A DNA stretch of 31,724 nt from positions 1 to 31,724 of the IMG/VR virus record IMGVR_UViG_3300025697_001371, one strand, 5' to 3'. The position numbers were made by a program, and so were the translations under genes. This document shows, piece by piece, positions 1-17,291 of the stretch. A model generated the notes under the pieces. It had not been told where the DNA came from, ran no database searches, and was given only the letters and a program-made list of their open reading frames with translations. Every line of letters starts with the position of its first letter. The stretch's first letter is position 1. This stretch comes from a virus.

Positions 1-60
1 TATAAACTCTGAATGGGGGTGCTACATCACCCCCAACCCTTAACCTTATGTAGGAGGTAG
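1..60 (+). promoter_or_regulatory. HNH-leader pseudoknot RNA element, copy 1 (5' end cut by window)
   Basis: Leader of the first HNH gene. Stem GGGGGTG (15-21) pairs with CACCCCC (28-34). The loop CTACAT (22-27) is the exact reverse complement of ATGTAG (48-53), whose last two bases are part of the Shine-Dalgarno AGGAGG (52-57), so hairpin loop and SD-proximal segment can form an H-type pseudoknot. ACTCT at 6-10 matches the 3' strand of the upstream hairpin seen whole in copies at 12106 and 17216; its partner lies outside the window. The linker ACCCTTAACC between the two pairing segments is conserved. A role in limiting translation of the endonuclease is inferred. Confidence 0.75.
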
Positions 61-64
61 TGAG

Positions 65-2931: not shown

Positions 2932-2937
2932 CAATCT

Positions 2938-3009
2938 GGGGGTAAGAGTCCTGCAGGCTCTGTATGAGGGTGCTATACCACCCTCAACCCTTTAACCTTG
3001 TATAGGAGG
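2938..3009 (+). promoter_or_regulatory. HNH-leader pseudoknot RNA element, copy 2
   Basis: Begins GGGTAAGAGTC just after the portal stop. First hairpin AGAGTC (2945-2950)/GGCTCT (2956-2961), including a U.G where other copies have U-A. Second hairpin GAGGGTG (2966-2972)/CACCCTC (2979-2985): relative to the other copies G-C is replaced by A-T on both strands, a compensatory change. Loop CTATAC (2973-2978) is the reverse complement of GTATAG (3000-3005), which runs into the SD AGGAGG (3004-3009). GGGT at the 5' end can pair with ACCC (2987-2990) to close an outer helix. Confidence 0.8.
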
Positions 3010-3016
3010 AATTGGT

Positions 3017-6008: not shown

Positions 6009-9000
6009 ATGGCAGGTGTAAGTGATTGCACCGCTGGCTAGTAATAGTCAGGCAATAACGGGGTGAATTCAGGGAAACCTTAACATGTAATGATGATGGC
6101 AATCCTGAGCGAAGCTTGAGGGGAAACTCTCTTGAACGTGCAGAGACTAATTTTCGATCCCTAACAAGTTATGTTGAGGGAGGTAATGAAAACATGAGCG
6201 CCCTACATCTTAATGAGATGATGATATAGTCCGATTCTTATCGGAAACGGTAAGGTAAGAGATAAACAATCTTACATAAGGCGATGACATAGAAGTCAGT
6301 TTACAGAGACGATTTAGTAATTTCTTGGTCGTCTTTAACTCTTTAAGTAGGGGAATTACATGGATATTTTAACATCAGAAAAGGTTTATTTCTTGCATAT
6401 AGTTGATGGTATTAGTATTTTAAGTATCTCTAATATGTTTGATGTTAAGAAACCAAAAGTTTATAGTATGTTGTATAAATACTACACAAAGTTAGCAGAT
6501 GATTTAATTAAATCTGGTAATTATGACGAAGCTCTTCGTAATGTAGTTGTAGAGTTTGATTGTAAATGTGGTTGTGGCGAAAAAGTAGGCAAGTTAGGAA
6601 CTCCCTATAATATGGTAAAACCACATTGTATTAAGGAACATCAAGGGGTATTATGCAAAGGTACAAGATGTTCTGAAGAGTCCAGAGCTAAGATGAGAAA
6701 ACCCAAGTCTCTAGAGCATAGAAAGAATATATCTATAGGTAGAATGGGATATACACCTAAGCAAGAAGCTATAGATAAGTGGAAGAGAACTATGAGTGAA
6801 AAGGGGTATGACCATCTGAGAACTCCAAAATTACGAGAAGCACAGCGCAATAGAATGTTAGGTAAGAAGAGAACTAAGCTACAGAAACTTAACATGAGTA
6901 AATATATGAAAGGTAGGCCCTATAATAATTATAGACGGGGGCATTATTTGTCTATAAAGAACAATAAGTCTTTATTTTATAGGTCTTCATTAGAACTTAA
7001 AGCTTATATAATTTTAGAGTATGAAGACGATGTAGAGAAATTTATTGTTGAACCTTATACAATTCCTTATTTATATGAGGGAATGATTAGGAAGTATAGG
7101 CCAGATATTGAGATATATTATTGTGATGGTAGCATAAGTTTGGTGGAGGTTAAACCTAATATGGAGTTAGTTTGGGAGATAAATCAAGCTAAATTTTGTG
7201 CGGCCAGAGCTTATTGTGCTAAAAATAGAATGACATTTGAAATAATGACTGATACCTACTTAAATGAAGTTATAGTGAAACGGGGTGAACTCAGGGAACA
7301 TCTAAACTCTTATTTGAAAGAGCAAGACAATCCTGAGCCAAGCTCATCGAATAAATCAATTGGTATTGTAGATGAGAAGGTGCAACGACTAATGGATGAA
7401 AATGATTGTATTGATAAGTCCAACACGAGCGCCCCACCCATTGCTCTAGTCAAGTAGTGGTATGATATAGTCTGAACTATATGGAAACATATAGAAGTAA
7501 AATTTAAATGATTTTACGGTAACACACTTTGGAAGAAAGATGCTTACAGGTACTTTTGGGAAGCTTATCCCGAAATGCCTCCGGTTTATGAGGAACTTTT
7601 TGAAATTGTTCCTTCGGACGCAGCGTAAACAAAACATGCGCGTAGTTAGCTAAATTCGGTGAAAACCTCTTGAAGGCAATACCGAGCGAATCCTATAAGG
7701 AGCGTGTAACGACTATGAATCTAAGTAGAGAAGAATTAAGAAGTGCAGTAATTGGCATGGTATTAGGAGATGGGTGCATCTCAAAGAGATGGAAGAATGG
7801 TGAAGCTTACTTTCAGATGACACATTGTGTAGCTCAATATGAATACATGTTGTGGAAACAAAACATCTTAGACGAAATAACTTCATCTAAAATACATCCA
7901 ACAACAAGAGTATTAAATGGTAAAACATTTCATGGTTATCATTTAGGGACTCTAAGACATCCATCATTTACCAAATTATATAAACGGTTTTATTACGATA
8001 AAGTGAAAGTTGTTGATGAGTATCTCGTCAAGAAAATAAACCCTTTAGCATTGGCTATATGGTTTATGGATGATGGAACAAGTGGAATAAATAAGGATAG
8101 AGGGGTTGGGGAGAATAGATCATATTATCTCTGCACTAATAACTTTGATTACGCTAATCAATTACTTTTAAAGAAAAGCTTAAAACTAAACTTTGGTTTA
8201 GATTGGAATATCAATAAAGCTGGGAAGTCTAAGGATGGTACATACAACTATAGACTTAGATTAGCAAATAGGCATAATGAGATGTTTATTGATATAATAA
8301 GACCGTATATTATACCATGTATGAGATACAAAATAGATTCTTAACGCTAACCAGGATATTGAATCCTGTGATATAGTCTGGACTACATGGAGACATGTAG
8401 AGGCTGGCAGAAATGATCAGCCCCACTTTTAAATAAGTGAGTAACAAATTCGATGAACAATTCACTTCGGCCATTGGCCTTGGAGAGTTGTTAGAAAAGC
8501 CTGAAGGCGAGGACATGCAGACCGATACTCCGATTGAATCCTACACCATAGTGTGTAAGAATCGTTCTTTTGGTCGTATTGTTCGTATGAGTTATGAGAC
8601 TGTTGCGGATGCTCAGAAGGTTGGGAATATGCTGCAGACTACTGTCGGTACTTGGGGTAGACAGCTCCCAATTACCAAAGAGAAGTTCTACGCTAAATTT
8701 TTCAACCATGGGGCGTTAACTGCAGGGAGAGATGATCCGTTTGATAATACCATTACTGGTGTTGTTACCGATTCGTCTGGAGACTTTATTTATGATAGTC
8801 TTCCTCTGTTTGATACAGCGCATCCTGATAAGGTTGGTAATACGTATATTAATTATACTGAGACTAGGGCGCTGACTGCGGCTAATATTAAGACCACGTA
8901 TACTACGTTTACTACTACTAACAACAGGGATGAGAGAGGGGATATCATAGATATCTCTCCCGATACTCTGTTAATCCCACCGGCGCTTAAGTTTACTGCC

Positions 9001-9297: not shown

Positions 9298-9351
9298 ATA
9301 TCATATTTGACATATACGATTTTACTTGACATATATGTTCAAATGTGATAT
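9298..9351. repeat. Imperfect inverted repeat and direct TTGACATATA repeat at a promoter
   Basis: Left arm ATATCATATTTGACATAT (9298-9315) is an imperfect inverted copy of ATATGTTCAAATGTGATAT (9333-9351). Within it TTGACATATA occurs twice (9307-9316 and 9326-9335), 19 bp apart. The arms cover the -35 and much of the -10 box of the promoter described next, as an operator would. A hairpin in the transcript of the upstream capsid gene is also possible, though no T-run follows it. Confidence 0.55.
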
Positions 9352-9354
9352 AAT
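9326..9354 (+). promoter_or_regulatory. Consensus sigma70-type promoter before HNH 3
   Basis: TTGACA (9326-9331), a 17-bp spacer, and TATAAT (9349-9354): an exact consensus for bacterial housekeeping sigma. Predicted start about 9361-9362 is the first base of the outer helix of the HNH-leader RNA, so the transcript would begin with that structure. It lies immediately after the capsid stop and would serve HNH 3 and the downstream genes. Confidence 0.75.
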
Positions 9355-9361
9355 ATAGTCA

Positions 9362-9448
9362 AAAGTGGGGATAGAGATTCTAGACTCGAAAAGGGGTTTT
9401 CCTGACCCCCCTCCCCACTTTAAACTAACAGGGGTTATCTTAGGGGGA
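9362..9448 (+). promoter_or_regulatory. HNH-leader RNA element, diverged copy 3
   Basis: Outer helix AAAGTGGGGA (9362-9371)/TCCCCACTTT (9412-9421) is 10 bp, replacing the short GGGT/ACCC helix of the other copies. Inside lie GAG/CTC (9374-9387) and a GGGG (9393-9396)/CCCC hairpin with loop TTTTCCTGA (9397-9405). That loop can pair with CAGGGG (9429-9434) or, over nine positions with several G.U pairs, with the SD segment TTAGGGGGA (9440-9448). Same topology as the other four but different sequence; which downstream partner is used is unresolved. Confidence 0.6.
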
Positions 9449-9455
9449 TAATATT

Positions 9456-10562
9456 ATGAGAAAATTAACAATTGAGTATGTAAGAGAAAGAATAGCAGAA
9501 ATTGGATATGAGCTTCTATCTGAGGAATATATAAATTGTAGTACTAAATTGGAAATTCTATGCGATGAAGGGCATACCTACAAGACTTCTTGGGATAATT
9601 TTAATGATGGGTGTATTTGTCCTGAGTGTCAAGGCAACAAGAAAAAAACTATCGAAGAAGTTGCTGAATATGCTGCAAAATTAGGTTATAAGCTTCTCTC
9701 TACTAAATATATCAATTGTATGACCAAATTGGATTTTAAATGTGAGAAGGGGCATACTTTTCCTATGAGTTTCAATGATCTTTCTCAAGGTCATGATTGT
9801 GCAGAATGTGTTGGCAAGAAGAAAAAGACCATAGAGGAAATTAGAAAATTTGCTGAGGATATAGGATATGAACTTTTAAGTGATGAATATATTAATAGTA
9901 AGACTAAGTTAATTTTTAAGTGTCCAGAAGGTCATGAATTTCCTATGATCTGGAATAGTTTCCAGCAGGGACAAAGATGTCCCCATAAAAGATATGTTGG
10001 AATGGAGAAAGAAGGAAATCCCAATTATAGGGGTGGGGTAACTAAATTAGGTATACCCCTCTATGACACTTATGCTCATCAAATTGATTGGATTGAAGAA
10101 GTAAGACGTAGCCCAAACAATGAGAATTGGTTACAAGTTAGATGTACCAATTGTAATGAATGGTTTATACCTAAAACTAGTGAGGTTACTTGCAGATTAT
10201 CAGCCATAAATGATAAAAGTGCTGGTGAGTGCAGATTCTATTGTTCGGAAGAGTGCAAACATTCTTGCCCTATCTTTGGCCAACATGAATGGCCTAAAGG
10301 CTTCAAGAAAGATTATCACAGGCCCCACGATTATGCAGTCTGGGCCGATCTCATAAAAAAACGAGATGGCCATATCTGCCAAATCTGTGGCGAAACAGAA
10401 GGCATAAATGCACATCACTATGAAGGCCTACATGTCAATGATATGCAGTCACTAGACCTTGATATGGGTGTAACATTATGTGCTGAGTGTCACCATAGAT
10501 CACACACAGGTAGTGGGTGCACTTATTATGATTTACAGAAACGAAACGTATGTGGGAATTAA
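9456..10562 (+). CDS. Free-standing HNH homing endonuclease, three zinc modules (copy 3)
   Basis: 368 residues with the best-preserved modules: about 4-58, 64-118 and 124-177, with CDEGH, CEKGH and CPEGH first halves and CPEC, CAEC second halves (the third ends CPHK). The PLYDTYAHQID block, zinc ribbon (CTNC, CSEEC) and HNH nuclease (CQIC, HH, CAECHH) follow. Its last 150 nt are nearly the same as in the copy at 12182, so the nuclease ends share a recent common source or are homogenised by gene conversion. Driven by its own consensus promoter; SD AGGGGGA, 7 nt from ATG, may be held in the leader structure. Inserted directly behind the intron-laden capsid gene. Confidence 0.87.
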   Translation: MRKLTIEYVRERIAEIGYELLSEEYINCSTKLEILCDEGHTYKTSWDNFNDGCICPECQGNKKKTIEEVAEYAAKLGYKLLSTKYINCMTKLDFKCEKGHTFPMSFNDLSQGHDCAECVGKKKKTIEEIRKFAEDIGYELLSDEYINSKTKLIFKCPEGHEFPMIWNSFQQGQRCPHKRYVGMEKEGNPNYRGGVTKLGIPLYDTYAHQIDWIEEVRRSPNNENWLQVRCTNCNEWFIPKTSEVTCRLSAINDKSAGECRFYCSEECKHSCPIFGQHEWPKGFKKDYHRPHDYAVWADLIKKRDGHICQICGETEGINAHHYEGLHVNDMQSLDLDMGVTLCAECHHRSHTGSGCTYYDLQKRNVCGN

Positions 10563-10582: not shown

Positions 10583-10681
10583 ATGCCCAACCGAGATGGC
10601 ACAGGCCCCCGCGGAAATGGCCCAAAAACGGGCAGAGGTAAAGGTACTTGTAAGCCACGTAAAGGCGGTAGACGTAAATAA
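10583..10681 (+). CDS. Tiny Gly/Arg/Lys-rich protein, DUF5320-like
   Basis: 32 residues, MPNRDGTGPRGNGPKTGRGK followed by a basic end with one Cys. The start resembles the M.-.-DGTGP-G.GP-TGRG signature of DUF5320-type small proteins. SD AAGGAG is 10 nt before ATG, and the TAA overlaps the next ATG (TAATG), indicating translational coupling. Function is unknown; the basic disordered character would suit nucleic-acid or shell binding. Confidence 0.65.
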   Translation: MPNRDGTGPRGNGPKTGRGKGTCKPRKGGRRK

Positions 10682-12095: not shown

Positions 12096-12105
12096 ACGTA
12101 ACATA

Positions 12106-12174
12106 GGGTAAGAGTCTAATTAACTCTGAATGGGGGTGCCTTAATCACCCCCAACCCTTAACCTATTAAGGAGG
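12106..12174 (+). promoter_or_regulatory. HNH-leader pseudoknot RNA element, copy 4
   Basis: Complete copy: GGGT (12106-12109) can pair ACCC; hairpin AGAGT/ACTCT (12111-12127); hairpin GGGGGTG (12132-12138)/CACCCCC (12146-12152). Loop CCTTAAT (12139-12145) is the exact reverse complement of ATTAAGG (12165-12171), which overlaps the SD AAGGAGG (12168-12174). Except for the loop and its partner the element is almost base-for-base the same as that at 17216. Confidence 0.82.
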
Positions 12175-12181
12175 AATTGAG

Positions 12182-15703: not shown

Positions 15704-17221
15704 ATGACAGATAAAAAATTGTATTTTGGGCCGGACGAGAAGATAGTGGTATTCTTTTCAATATCAGAATTAGGTTGGCACTTACAGATGCTACAAGGAC
15801 GTATGAGACAACTCAAACAAACTAAGTATCCAGATCATAAGTTCATTTGTTTTTGTGATTTAGATAGGCACGTATTTCATCAAGATTTCGTATTCACAAC
15901 AATCGCCCTTCCCAACTTTTTCTACGAAGCGGGGCTAGAGCGAGATTGCTTTGAGGCACCTCCTCCAGAGTCTCCTCCAGGAGCACTTACAGATCCAGTT
16001 ATGTATGCAAAACTGATAGAGTACTTTAGGGGATTCTACGATCATACTTCTGAGAATACTGTGGAAATTTGGCCACCTAGAGGTTGCAGTCAATGGGCTA
16101 AGAATCAAATTCAACTTTTCTGCAAATACACGACTGCACCAATCCCCAATGAACGTCCGGTCATAACGATTTTTCCAAGGGGAAGGGCGAGAGCGGCAAA
16201 TAGAAACGTACCACCCTCTGTTTGGCACGGGATAGTGGATAGTCTGAAACAGACATTCACAGTAGTTTTAGCGGGCACACCGGAAGGTGCTTGTTTAGGC
16301 AATTATCCGAAAGACCAAAGTGTGATTAATTTGATAAGCGATACTCCAGATACTGAACGAATTATACAGTGGCTTAATACAAGTGTATGTTCCATTTCTT
16401 CACAGAGTGGGGGAACTCATATTAGCTTACTTTCAGGATGTCCTTCATATATCATAGGCCACGAAAGACAACGCCATTGTGTAGACGAAAATAGACTTAA
16501 CACACCAACTACTTTTAGAACTGTCCCTGGGAATAGTTATATGAGTATTAGTGCGGAGCAGGTGTTGGATGATGTGCAAACTTTTCTTTATAACTTGCAA
16601 GAGGCTGGCATGTTCGAAAAATTGGACCGCCCGGCTCTTCGCAATTTACAAGGTCAGAAAGATCTTGTTGGTGTTGAGTTAGGAGTTTTCAAGGCGGCTA
16701 ATGCAGCGAATATTCTTCAGTTCCTTGACATTAAGAAGCTGTATTTAGTTGACCCATTTCTTAGTTATGCAGGGAAAGAATTGGACGTGAAGACTTCAGA
16801 GGAAATTGAAAAAACAGCAAACCTTAATTTGAGGCAGTATCCAGCAGACAAGGTGGAGTGGATTAAAAAGAAATCTGTTGATGCTGTTGATGACACCCCA
16901 GATGATTTGGATTTTTGTTATCTTGATTCTGATCATACTTACGAAAATGTTATGGTTGAGCTTGAATTATACTACAAAAAAGTCAAAGATGGTGGAGTTA
17001 TTGGTGGCCACGATTACGATAAATCCTCTGCAGACAATGGGGTAAAACGTGCAGTGGACAGCTTTTTTAAGGAGAAGGGTTTGGAAGTTCATTCTAAGAT
17101 GTGTCGTGATAGTGGAGGTCATACTATAGATTGGTGGGTAATAAAACCTACTACGTATGACGCTGTTCTGGAAAGAGACGCAGATATTCTAAGAGAAATG
17201 ATAGATAAGTCAATAGGGTAA
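15704..17221 (+). CDS. Glycosyltransferase (GT9-like) fused to a class I methyltransferase
   Basis: 505 residues, two domains. The N-terminal 1-300 looks like a GT-B glycosyltransferase of the heptosyltransferase/ADP-heptose type, with VITIFPRGR at about 153-161 and the late SSQSGGTHISLLSGCPS sugar-nucleotide loop (232-248). The C-terminal domain (about 320-480) is a Methyltransf_24-type SAM enzyme: LVGVELGVFKAANA, YLVDPF, DLDFCYLDSDHTYENV, GGVIGGHDYD. The pair would add and methylate a sugar. First gene of the glycan island, with SD GAGGAG. Its stop codon TAA is part of the GGGTAAGAG that opens the next HNH-leader element, so the element inserted exactly at the gene end. Confidence 0.75.
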   Translation: MTDKKLYFGPDEKIVVFFSISELGWHLQMLQGRMRQLKQTKYPDHKFICFCDLDRHVFHQDFVFTTIALPNFFYEAGLERDCFEAPPPESPPGALTDPVMYAKLIEYFRGFYDHTSENTVEIWPPRGCSQWAKNQIQLFCKYTTAPIPNERPVITIFPRGRARAANRNVPPSVWHGIVDSLKQTFTVVLAGTPEGACLGNYPKDQSVINLISDTPDTERIIQWLNTSVCSISSQSGGTHISLLSGCPSYIIGHERQRHCVDENRLNTPTTFRTVPGNSYMSISAEQVLDDVQTFLYNLQEAGMFEKLDRPALRNLQGQKDLVGVELGVFKAANAANILQFLDIKKLYLVDPFLSYAGKELDVKTSEEIEKTANLNLRQYPADKVEWIKKKSVDAVDDTPDDLDFCYLDSDHTYENVMVELELYYKKVKDGGVIGGHDYDKSSADNGVKRAVDSFFKEKGLEVHSKMCRDSGGHTIDWWVIKPTTYDAVLERDADILREMIDKSIG

Positions 17222-17284
17222 GAGTCTAATTAACTCTGAATGGGGGTGCCTCTATCACCCCCAACCCTTAACCTATAGAGGAGG
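17216..17284 (+). promoter_or_regulatory. HNH-leader pseudoknot RNA element, copy 5
   Basis: Hairpin AGAGT/ACTCT, then GGGGGTG (17242-17248)/CACCCCC (17256-17262). Loop CCTCTAT (17249-17255) is the exact reverse complement of ATAGAGG (17275-17281), which overlaps SD AGGAGG (17279-17284). GGGT (17216-17219) can pair with ACCC after the hairpin. The 5' end coincides with the stop of the preceding gene. Confidence 0.82.
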
Positions 17285-17291
17285 TAGAGAG

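Follow-up and report, generated by a model that had tools for sequence, protein, structure and literature searches.

Locus and leader of HNH 3

The stretch of DNA analyzed here (the window), an IMG/VR virus record of 31.7 kb, carries five paralogous HNH genes. HNH 3, a gene of the homing-endonuclease type, encodes a protein that is 45-64% identical to the other four; it lies after the major capsid gene, whose last position is 9285, and a promoter and a structured leader are located between the two genes (Table 1). In the region of the capsid gene (6014-8400), Rfam matched group I introns twice (6014-6254 and 7234-7494). The same region holds two ORFs, one with a TnsA-like nuclease domain (6360-7457) and one of the LAGLIDADG type (7670-8344), and near 8375-8400 another 3' end that looks intron-like. 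Given the two intron matches and the third intron-like end, the capsid gene may carry up to three introns. Downstream of HNH 3, at 10583-10681, an ORF of 32 aa rich in glycine and basic residues (MPNRDGTGPRGNGPKTGRGKGTCKPRKGGRRK) was found, the stop of which overlaps the next start codon.

Table 1. Features of the HNH 3 leader region and type-B leaders of the window.
Feature	Position	Strand	Basis
sigma70-type promoter TTGACA-N17-TATAAT (TTGACA 9326-9331, spacer 17 nt, TATAAT 9349-9354), TG before -10	9326-9354	+	12/12 match
Predicted transcription start, first base of P1	9361-9362	+	7-8 nt after -10
P1 5' strand AAAGTGGGGA	9362-9371	+	fold, Rfam alignment
int-alpA RNA (RF02996)	9364-9433	+	cmscan 37.7 bits, gathering 35.8, full model 1-71
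J1/2 UA, conserved in int-alpA	9372-9373	+	Rfam alignment, family leaders
P2 hairpin GAG-loop-CTC (stem 9374-9376/9385-9387)	9374-9387	+	fold, Rfam alignment
J2/3 GAAAA, conserved in int-alpA	9388-9392	+	Rfam alignment, family leaders
P3 hairpin (stem 9393-9398/9404-9409), pairing loop TTTTCCTGA (9397-9405)	9393-9409	+	fold, Rfam alignment
P1 3' strand TCCCCACTTT	9412-9421	+	fold, Rfam alignment
Site 1 (decoy) CAGGGG, pairs with CCTG 9401-9404	9429-9434	+	family z 17; -6.5 kcal/mol in the HNH 3 leader
SD hairpin TTATC-TTAGGGG-GATAA	9435-9451	+	fold, -4.4 kcal/mol; family z 12
Site 2 TTAGGGGGA, overlaps Shine-Dalgarno AGGGGG (9442-9447)	9440-9448	+	family z 13; -6.4 kcal/mol in the HNH 3 leader, G-U included
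HNH 3 endonuclease gene (homing-endonuclease type)	9456-10562	+	phrog_559 E 8.8e-36, phrog_1271 E 6.7e-10
Type-B leader of HNH 1, 5' end cut by window; loop/SD CTACAT/ATGTAG	1-62	+	pairing, covariance model
Type-B leader of HNH 2; CTATAC/GTATAG	2936-3016	+	pairing, covariance model
Type-B leader of HNH 4; CCTTAAT/ATTAAGG	12102-12181	+	pairing, covariance model
Type-B leader of HNH 5; CCTCTAT/ATAGAGG	17212-17291	+	pairing, covariance model

A sequence-only reading of this region had proposed that a perfect TTGACA-17-TATAAT promoter places the transcript start at the first base of an outer helix. The promoter is present with all 12 positions matching and is the only one of its kind in the window, while shuffled sequences give a mean of 0.09 occurrences per window. 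The start predicted from it falls on A9361/A9362 and P1 starts at A9362, in agreement with the proposal. The layout described for the leader, an outer helix of 10 bp (P1), the hairpins P2 and P3 and a loop able to pair downstream, was likewise recovered in full. Exactly these helices were obtained in the minimum-energy as well as in the centroid fold, including the outer helix on which that reading had rested. Fold energy does not set the leader apart from shuffled sequences (z +0.63 for 9361-9448 and -1.3 for its core); support for the structure therefore comes from homology and not from stability.

Classification as int-alpA RNA and relatives

With its default fast filters, Rfam detected only a tRNA and group I introns in the window and missed the leader; permissive filters were needed to obtain its match to the int-alpA RNA, which covers the full model. 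The covariance score lies above the gathering score by only 2 bits. When the junction was compared with the int-alpA linkers UA, CGAAAAG and CU, the first two were found to be exact and J3/1 to be CC, not CU. The pairing of the CCU loop with a downstream AGG is retained as CCTG with CAGG (9429-9432), both sides being altered relative to CCTT/AAGG. On this sequence evidence the leader of HNH 3 is a member of RF02996 and is better classed as int-alpA than as a copy of the HNH leader of the window. The int-alpA RNA is an orphan, almost absent from the literature searched, where one paper lists it among the sRNAs of Shiga-toxin E. coli and the accession RF02996 was not found. It is said to have been described in Weinberg et al. 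2017. The type given to the family by Rfam is 'Gene; sRNA'. The RNA studied here looks like a 5' leader, and it sits between the capsid and HNH genes instead of between the int and alpA genes after which the family is named.

No homologue of the leader was detected in the named phages searched, although Enterobacter phage Tyrion and Salmonella phage BIS08P22 contain regions that resemble an int-alpA leader. RF02996 gave no match either across 39 viral records with HNH relatives; the first-look filter used there missed L005, a relative of HNH 3 in another phage, whose own leader is RF02996 by direct cmscan (40.8 bits). Among 369 genomes of one bacterial class, 39 contained RF02996 above the cut-off. 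Pattern scans yielded 88 genome loci and 56 viral loci, and with one P2 motif at least 120 stretches were found in viruses. Parsing by structure produced 150 distinct leaders, and for 92 non-redundant clusters (less than 85% alike) an open reading frame begins within 48 nt of P1. In the relatives, where start codons were assigned by rule, the median distance from P1 to the start codon is 33.5 nt. Since the patterns used to gather these relatives were anchored on the CGAAAAG core, the near-invariance of the junction nucleotides UA/GAAAA/CU in the collected leaders is inflated, being partly due to pattern construction; the loop and site statistics are not inflated in this way, because the loop was unconstrained in the third scan. 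A promoter adjacent to P1 was not seen as a general feature of the int-alpA family, most copies having no promoter of their own.

The genes that follow the leaders are unrelated and comprise homing endonucleases, primosomal proteins and antirepressors. E. coli copies are flanked by an integrase gene on one side and by a hypothetical gene and then an AlpA-like regulator on the other, and the viral members are mostly found outside this int/alpA context. Homing endonucleases downstream of viral leaders include the HNH, NUMOD4-HNH, AP2 and (weakly) GIY-YIG types, and the other proteins include DUF1376 primosomal proteins, DUF927 primase-helicases, Rha, KilA-N and Bro-N. Among the leaders most alike to that of HNH 3 is the int-alpA leader of L254 (48.6 bits; alignment 70, shuffled maximum 35). 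The gene start at this locus resembles a different endonuclease, of the AP2/HNH type, as read from the sequence with no family match. L222 carries a tandem pair of int-alpA RNAs, the first of which has a CCTCCTG/CAGGAGG pairing with a full Shine-Dalgarno inside CAGGAGG. In Pseudomonas phage vB_PaS_IME307 (L421, 1193-1756) the annotated CDS start lies just ahead of a 46-nt int-alpA leader match, and the start codon was therefore probably annotated too far upstream.

Loop pairing in int-alpA and type-B leaders

CAGGGG and TTAGGGGGA had been proposed earlier as candidate partners of the P3 loop between which a choice was to be made. This is probably not an either/or choice, as the loop complements the decoy as well as the SD site throughout the family. 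In the 92 leaders less than 85% alike, the longest Watson-Crick run formed by the P3 loop averaged 5.34 for site 1 and 5.16 for site 2; when loops were exchanged between leaders the averages were 3.63 and 3.94 (z 17 and 13), and the own pairs exceeded all permutations. Since site 2 is constrained to look like an SD, its pairing with CCTT loops arises partly by default; in the 46 leaders with non-CCTT loops the values were 5.07/5.00 for own and 3.25/3.53 for swapped loops (z 13 and 11). Overlapping loop bases serve both sites in 35 of these 46, and such double use is absent in 11. Lower scores were obtained in all controls, that is with reversed loops, with shuffled loops and in the coding-sequence control. 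In the leader of HNH 3 the pairings with site 1 and site 2, calculated as nearest-neighbour duplexes without the junction, are nearly isoenergetic, although the latter needs G-U pairs and contains only 3 consecutive Watson-Crick pairs. Based on these energies the two earlier candidates (site 1 and site 2, respectively) are probably both used.

The SD of HNH 3 is in addition enclosed in a hairpin. Across the family the SD is located in such a hairpin more often than chance would give (stem 3.87 versus 2.74 bp, z 12), with a clear hairpin of at least 4 bp in only 59% of leaders. A reading as a CsrA-type GGA hairpin was dropped, since GGA is not constant.

The four other leaders of the window belong together with L004, L006, L007, L412, L417 and L418 to a second form, type B. 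Its layout is P1-A-P2-GAA-P3 without a third linker, and the P3 loop pairs over 6-7 bp with a segment that runs into the SD. As the MAFFT register in the loop was wrong for short loops, this pairing was tested by permutation: it is perfect in all eight leaders tested, the pairing sequences of which all differ, and the true matching ranked first of 40,320 permutations. Type B also precedes other kinds of genes that read as endonucleases (L412, L418). In an exact-pattern scan of viral contigs no type-B leaders were found. L175 has a capsid gene that is a homologue of the one in the window; behind it, a type-B-like leader (CTCGTT/AACGAG; 6866-6940) precedes a different HNH-type gene, so that the position is that of HNH 3 but gene and leader are others.

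When the type-B covariance model (R1) was applied to the leader of HNH 3, a score at noise level was obtained (9.3 bits, E 0.78). The statement of the sequence-only reading that this leader matches none of the other four in sequence thus nearly holds inside the window. Outside it, relatives of those leaders do align: over promoter and leader together, the alignment score reached 79 for L417 (shuffled maximum 37) and 72 for L418 (shuffled maximum 31). With the leader part alone L417 scored 37 against a shuffled maximum of 28, with 0 of 1000 shuffles as high, and L418 was marginal with 30 against 34, 1 of 1000 shuffles being as high. As L417 and L418, from another phage, align over promoter and leader, the kinship with type B appears to be real; the leader of HNH 3 is probably related to the type-B leaders and would thus bridge type A and type B. 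The alternative, convergence of the leaders with only the promoter cassette in common with L417 and L418, is consistent with the low R1 score, with the lack of an RF02996 match for L417 and with the marginal result for L418. We nevertheless consider it somewhat unlikely, because the leader part of L417 stands out on its own and because none of the 97 other type-A leaders scored above 28 with any type-B leader. The proposed diverged HNH-leader copy can therefore be kept as far as kinship is concerned, by these alignments and by the P1/P2/P3 and loop-to-SD layout common to all, whereas its class is that of RF02996.

The sequence-only reading had further suggested that only this copy has a promoter of its own and that it may be ancestral. 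The promoter cassette TTTACTTGACAT-TATAATATA is also found before the type-B leaders L410, L417 and L418, so that a promoter peculiar to this copy is not supported beyond the window. The HNH 3 protein groups with the type-B carriers w4, w5 and L004 (support 91/96 in a small tree, the fork being drawn as open), and the leader type needs two changes on this tree; an ancestral form is not supported. In L423 and L424 (640-860) an HNH gene is present without a leader, its start codon lying on the upstream stop codon, at the same junction as in L004 (145-225), indicating that the leader is a separable module.

A candidate translational switch and known systems

Taking together the features that can be read from the DNA, namely family membership, the helices, family-wide complementarity to two sites, the SD hairpin, the type-B pairing and the common promoter, we consider it fairly probable that this int-alpA RNA works in cis and switches the translation of HNH 3. 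The three-way junction of P1, P2 and P3, with its conserved UA and GAAAA linkers, would present the P3 loop to two downstream sites. With the loop on site 1, presumably the ON state, the SD region would be left to the ribosome, perhaps via the small SD hairpin; with the loop on site 2 the SD would be masked and the endonuclease silenced. The two pairings would exclude each other in the cell, and a signal such as a ligand, a protein, the infection stage or transcription kinetics may select the state. The four other HNH leaders would represent a simplified form with one site overlapping the SD, and the leader may move as a module, with or without promoter, before homing endonucleases and other phage genes.

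Masking could also be static, with the loop pairing with one site in a pseudoknot that keeps the endonuclease low without switching, and with both sites merely resembling an SD. Type-B leaders indeed have one site, and T4-type homing endonucleases are held low by hairpins at the ribosome-binding site (PMC2988022); however, in the 46 leaders without a CCTT loop both sites track the loop sequence (TTACGG occurs twice in L274, TCAGACA twice in L313 and GACGG twice in L295), which SD resemblance does not explain, and static masking therefore seems quite unlikely to us. A metabolite or ion riboswitch, in which the UA/GAAAA/CU junction forms the ligand pocket and the two-site loop pairing the expression platform, appears improbable: the alternative pairing does resemble such a platform and the junction is near-invariant, if partly by pattern construction, but that junction may be purely structural and the downstream genes share no common pathway. 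A trans-acting small RNA with an incidental downstream gene, as the Rfam annotation implies and as the promoter of the HNH 3 copy would allow, is very unlikely. Such a promoter is absent in most copies, no terminator was found between the RNA and the HNH 3 gene, and the start codon follows P1 at the distance given above, with the loop covarying with the SD region of that same gene. The cis-acting switch is thus the reading that we prefer.

More tentatively, int-alpA and its type-B relative might constitute one new class of mobile translational switch, which phages and integrative elements put before homing endonuclease, replication-initiation and antirepressor genes, and in which the P3 loop would toggle between decoy and Shine-Dalgarno when a common signal reports infection or the state of the element. 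A 5' leader with a loop that tracks a decoy and the ribosome-binding site would provide int-alpA with a concrete, testable function. It would also extend the family beyond its int-alpA setting to many phages and link it to the control of homing endonucleases, whose expression must be limited, and the leader would be a candidate compact translational switch for reporter assays.

With RF02996 the leader of HNH 3 shares the full-length covariance match, the P1/UA/P2/GAAAA/P3 junction and the CCU loop with its downstream AGG. In contrast to the Rfam family, which is typed as an sRNA gene and the model of which ends at site 1, it precedes an HNH gene, has CCUG/CAGG for CCUU/AAGG and CC for CU in J3/1, and is extended by the SD hairpin and a second pairing site. 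The type-B leaders of the window resemble it in P1/P2/P3, in the pairing of the P3 loop with the SD and in the gene family, but their linkers are A, GAA and none against UA, GAAAA and CU (here CC), and they have a single site, neither decoy nor SD hairpin, and are missed by RF02996. In translational pseudoknot riboswitches of the preQ1 and SAM-II type the loop pairing includes the SD. The predicted loop pairing before HNH 3 would take in the SD likewise, whereas junction and topology differ, the downstream genes are unrelated and a ligand is only hypothetical. Among T4-like homing endonucleases, I-TevI, mobE and segB have RNA hairpins that sequester the ribosome-binding site, that of I-TevI on early and middle transcripts (PMC2988022). 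As in these, a structured leader lies over the Shine-Dalgarno of a phage homing endonuclease and may mask it; unlike the T4-type hairpins, the leader of HNH 3 forms a three-way junction with long-range loop pairing and a decoy site.
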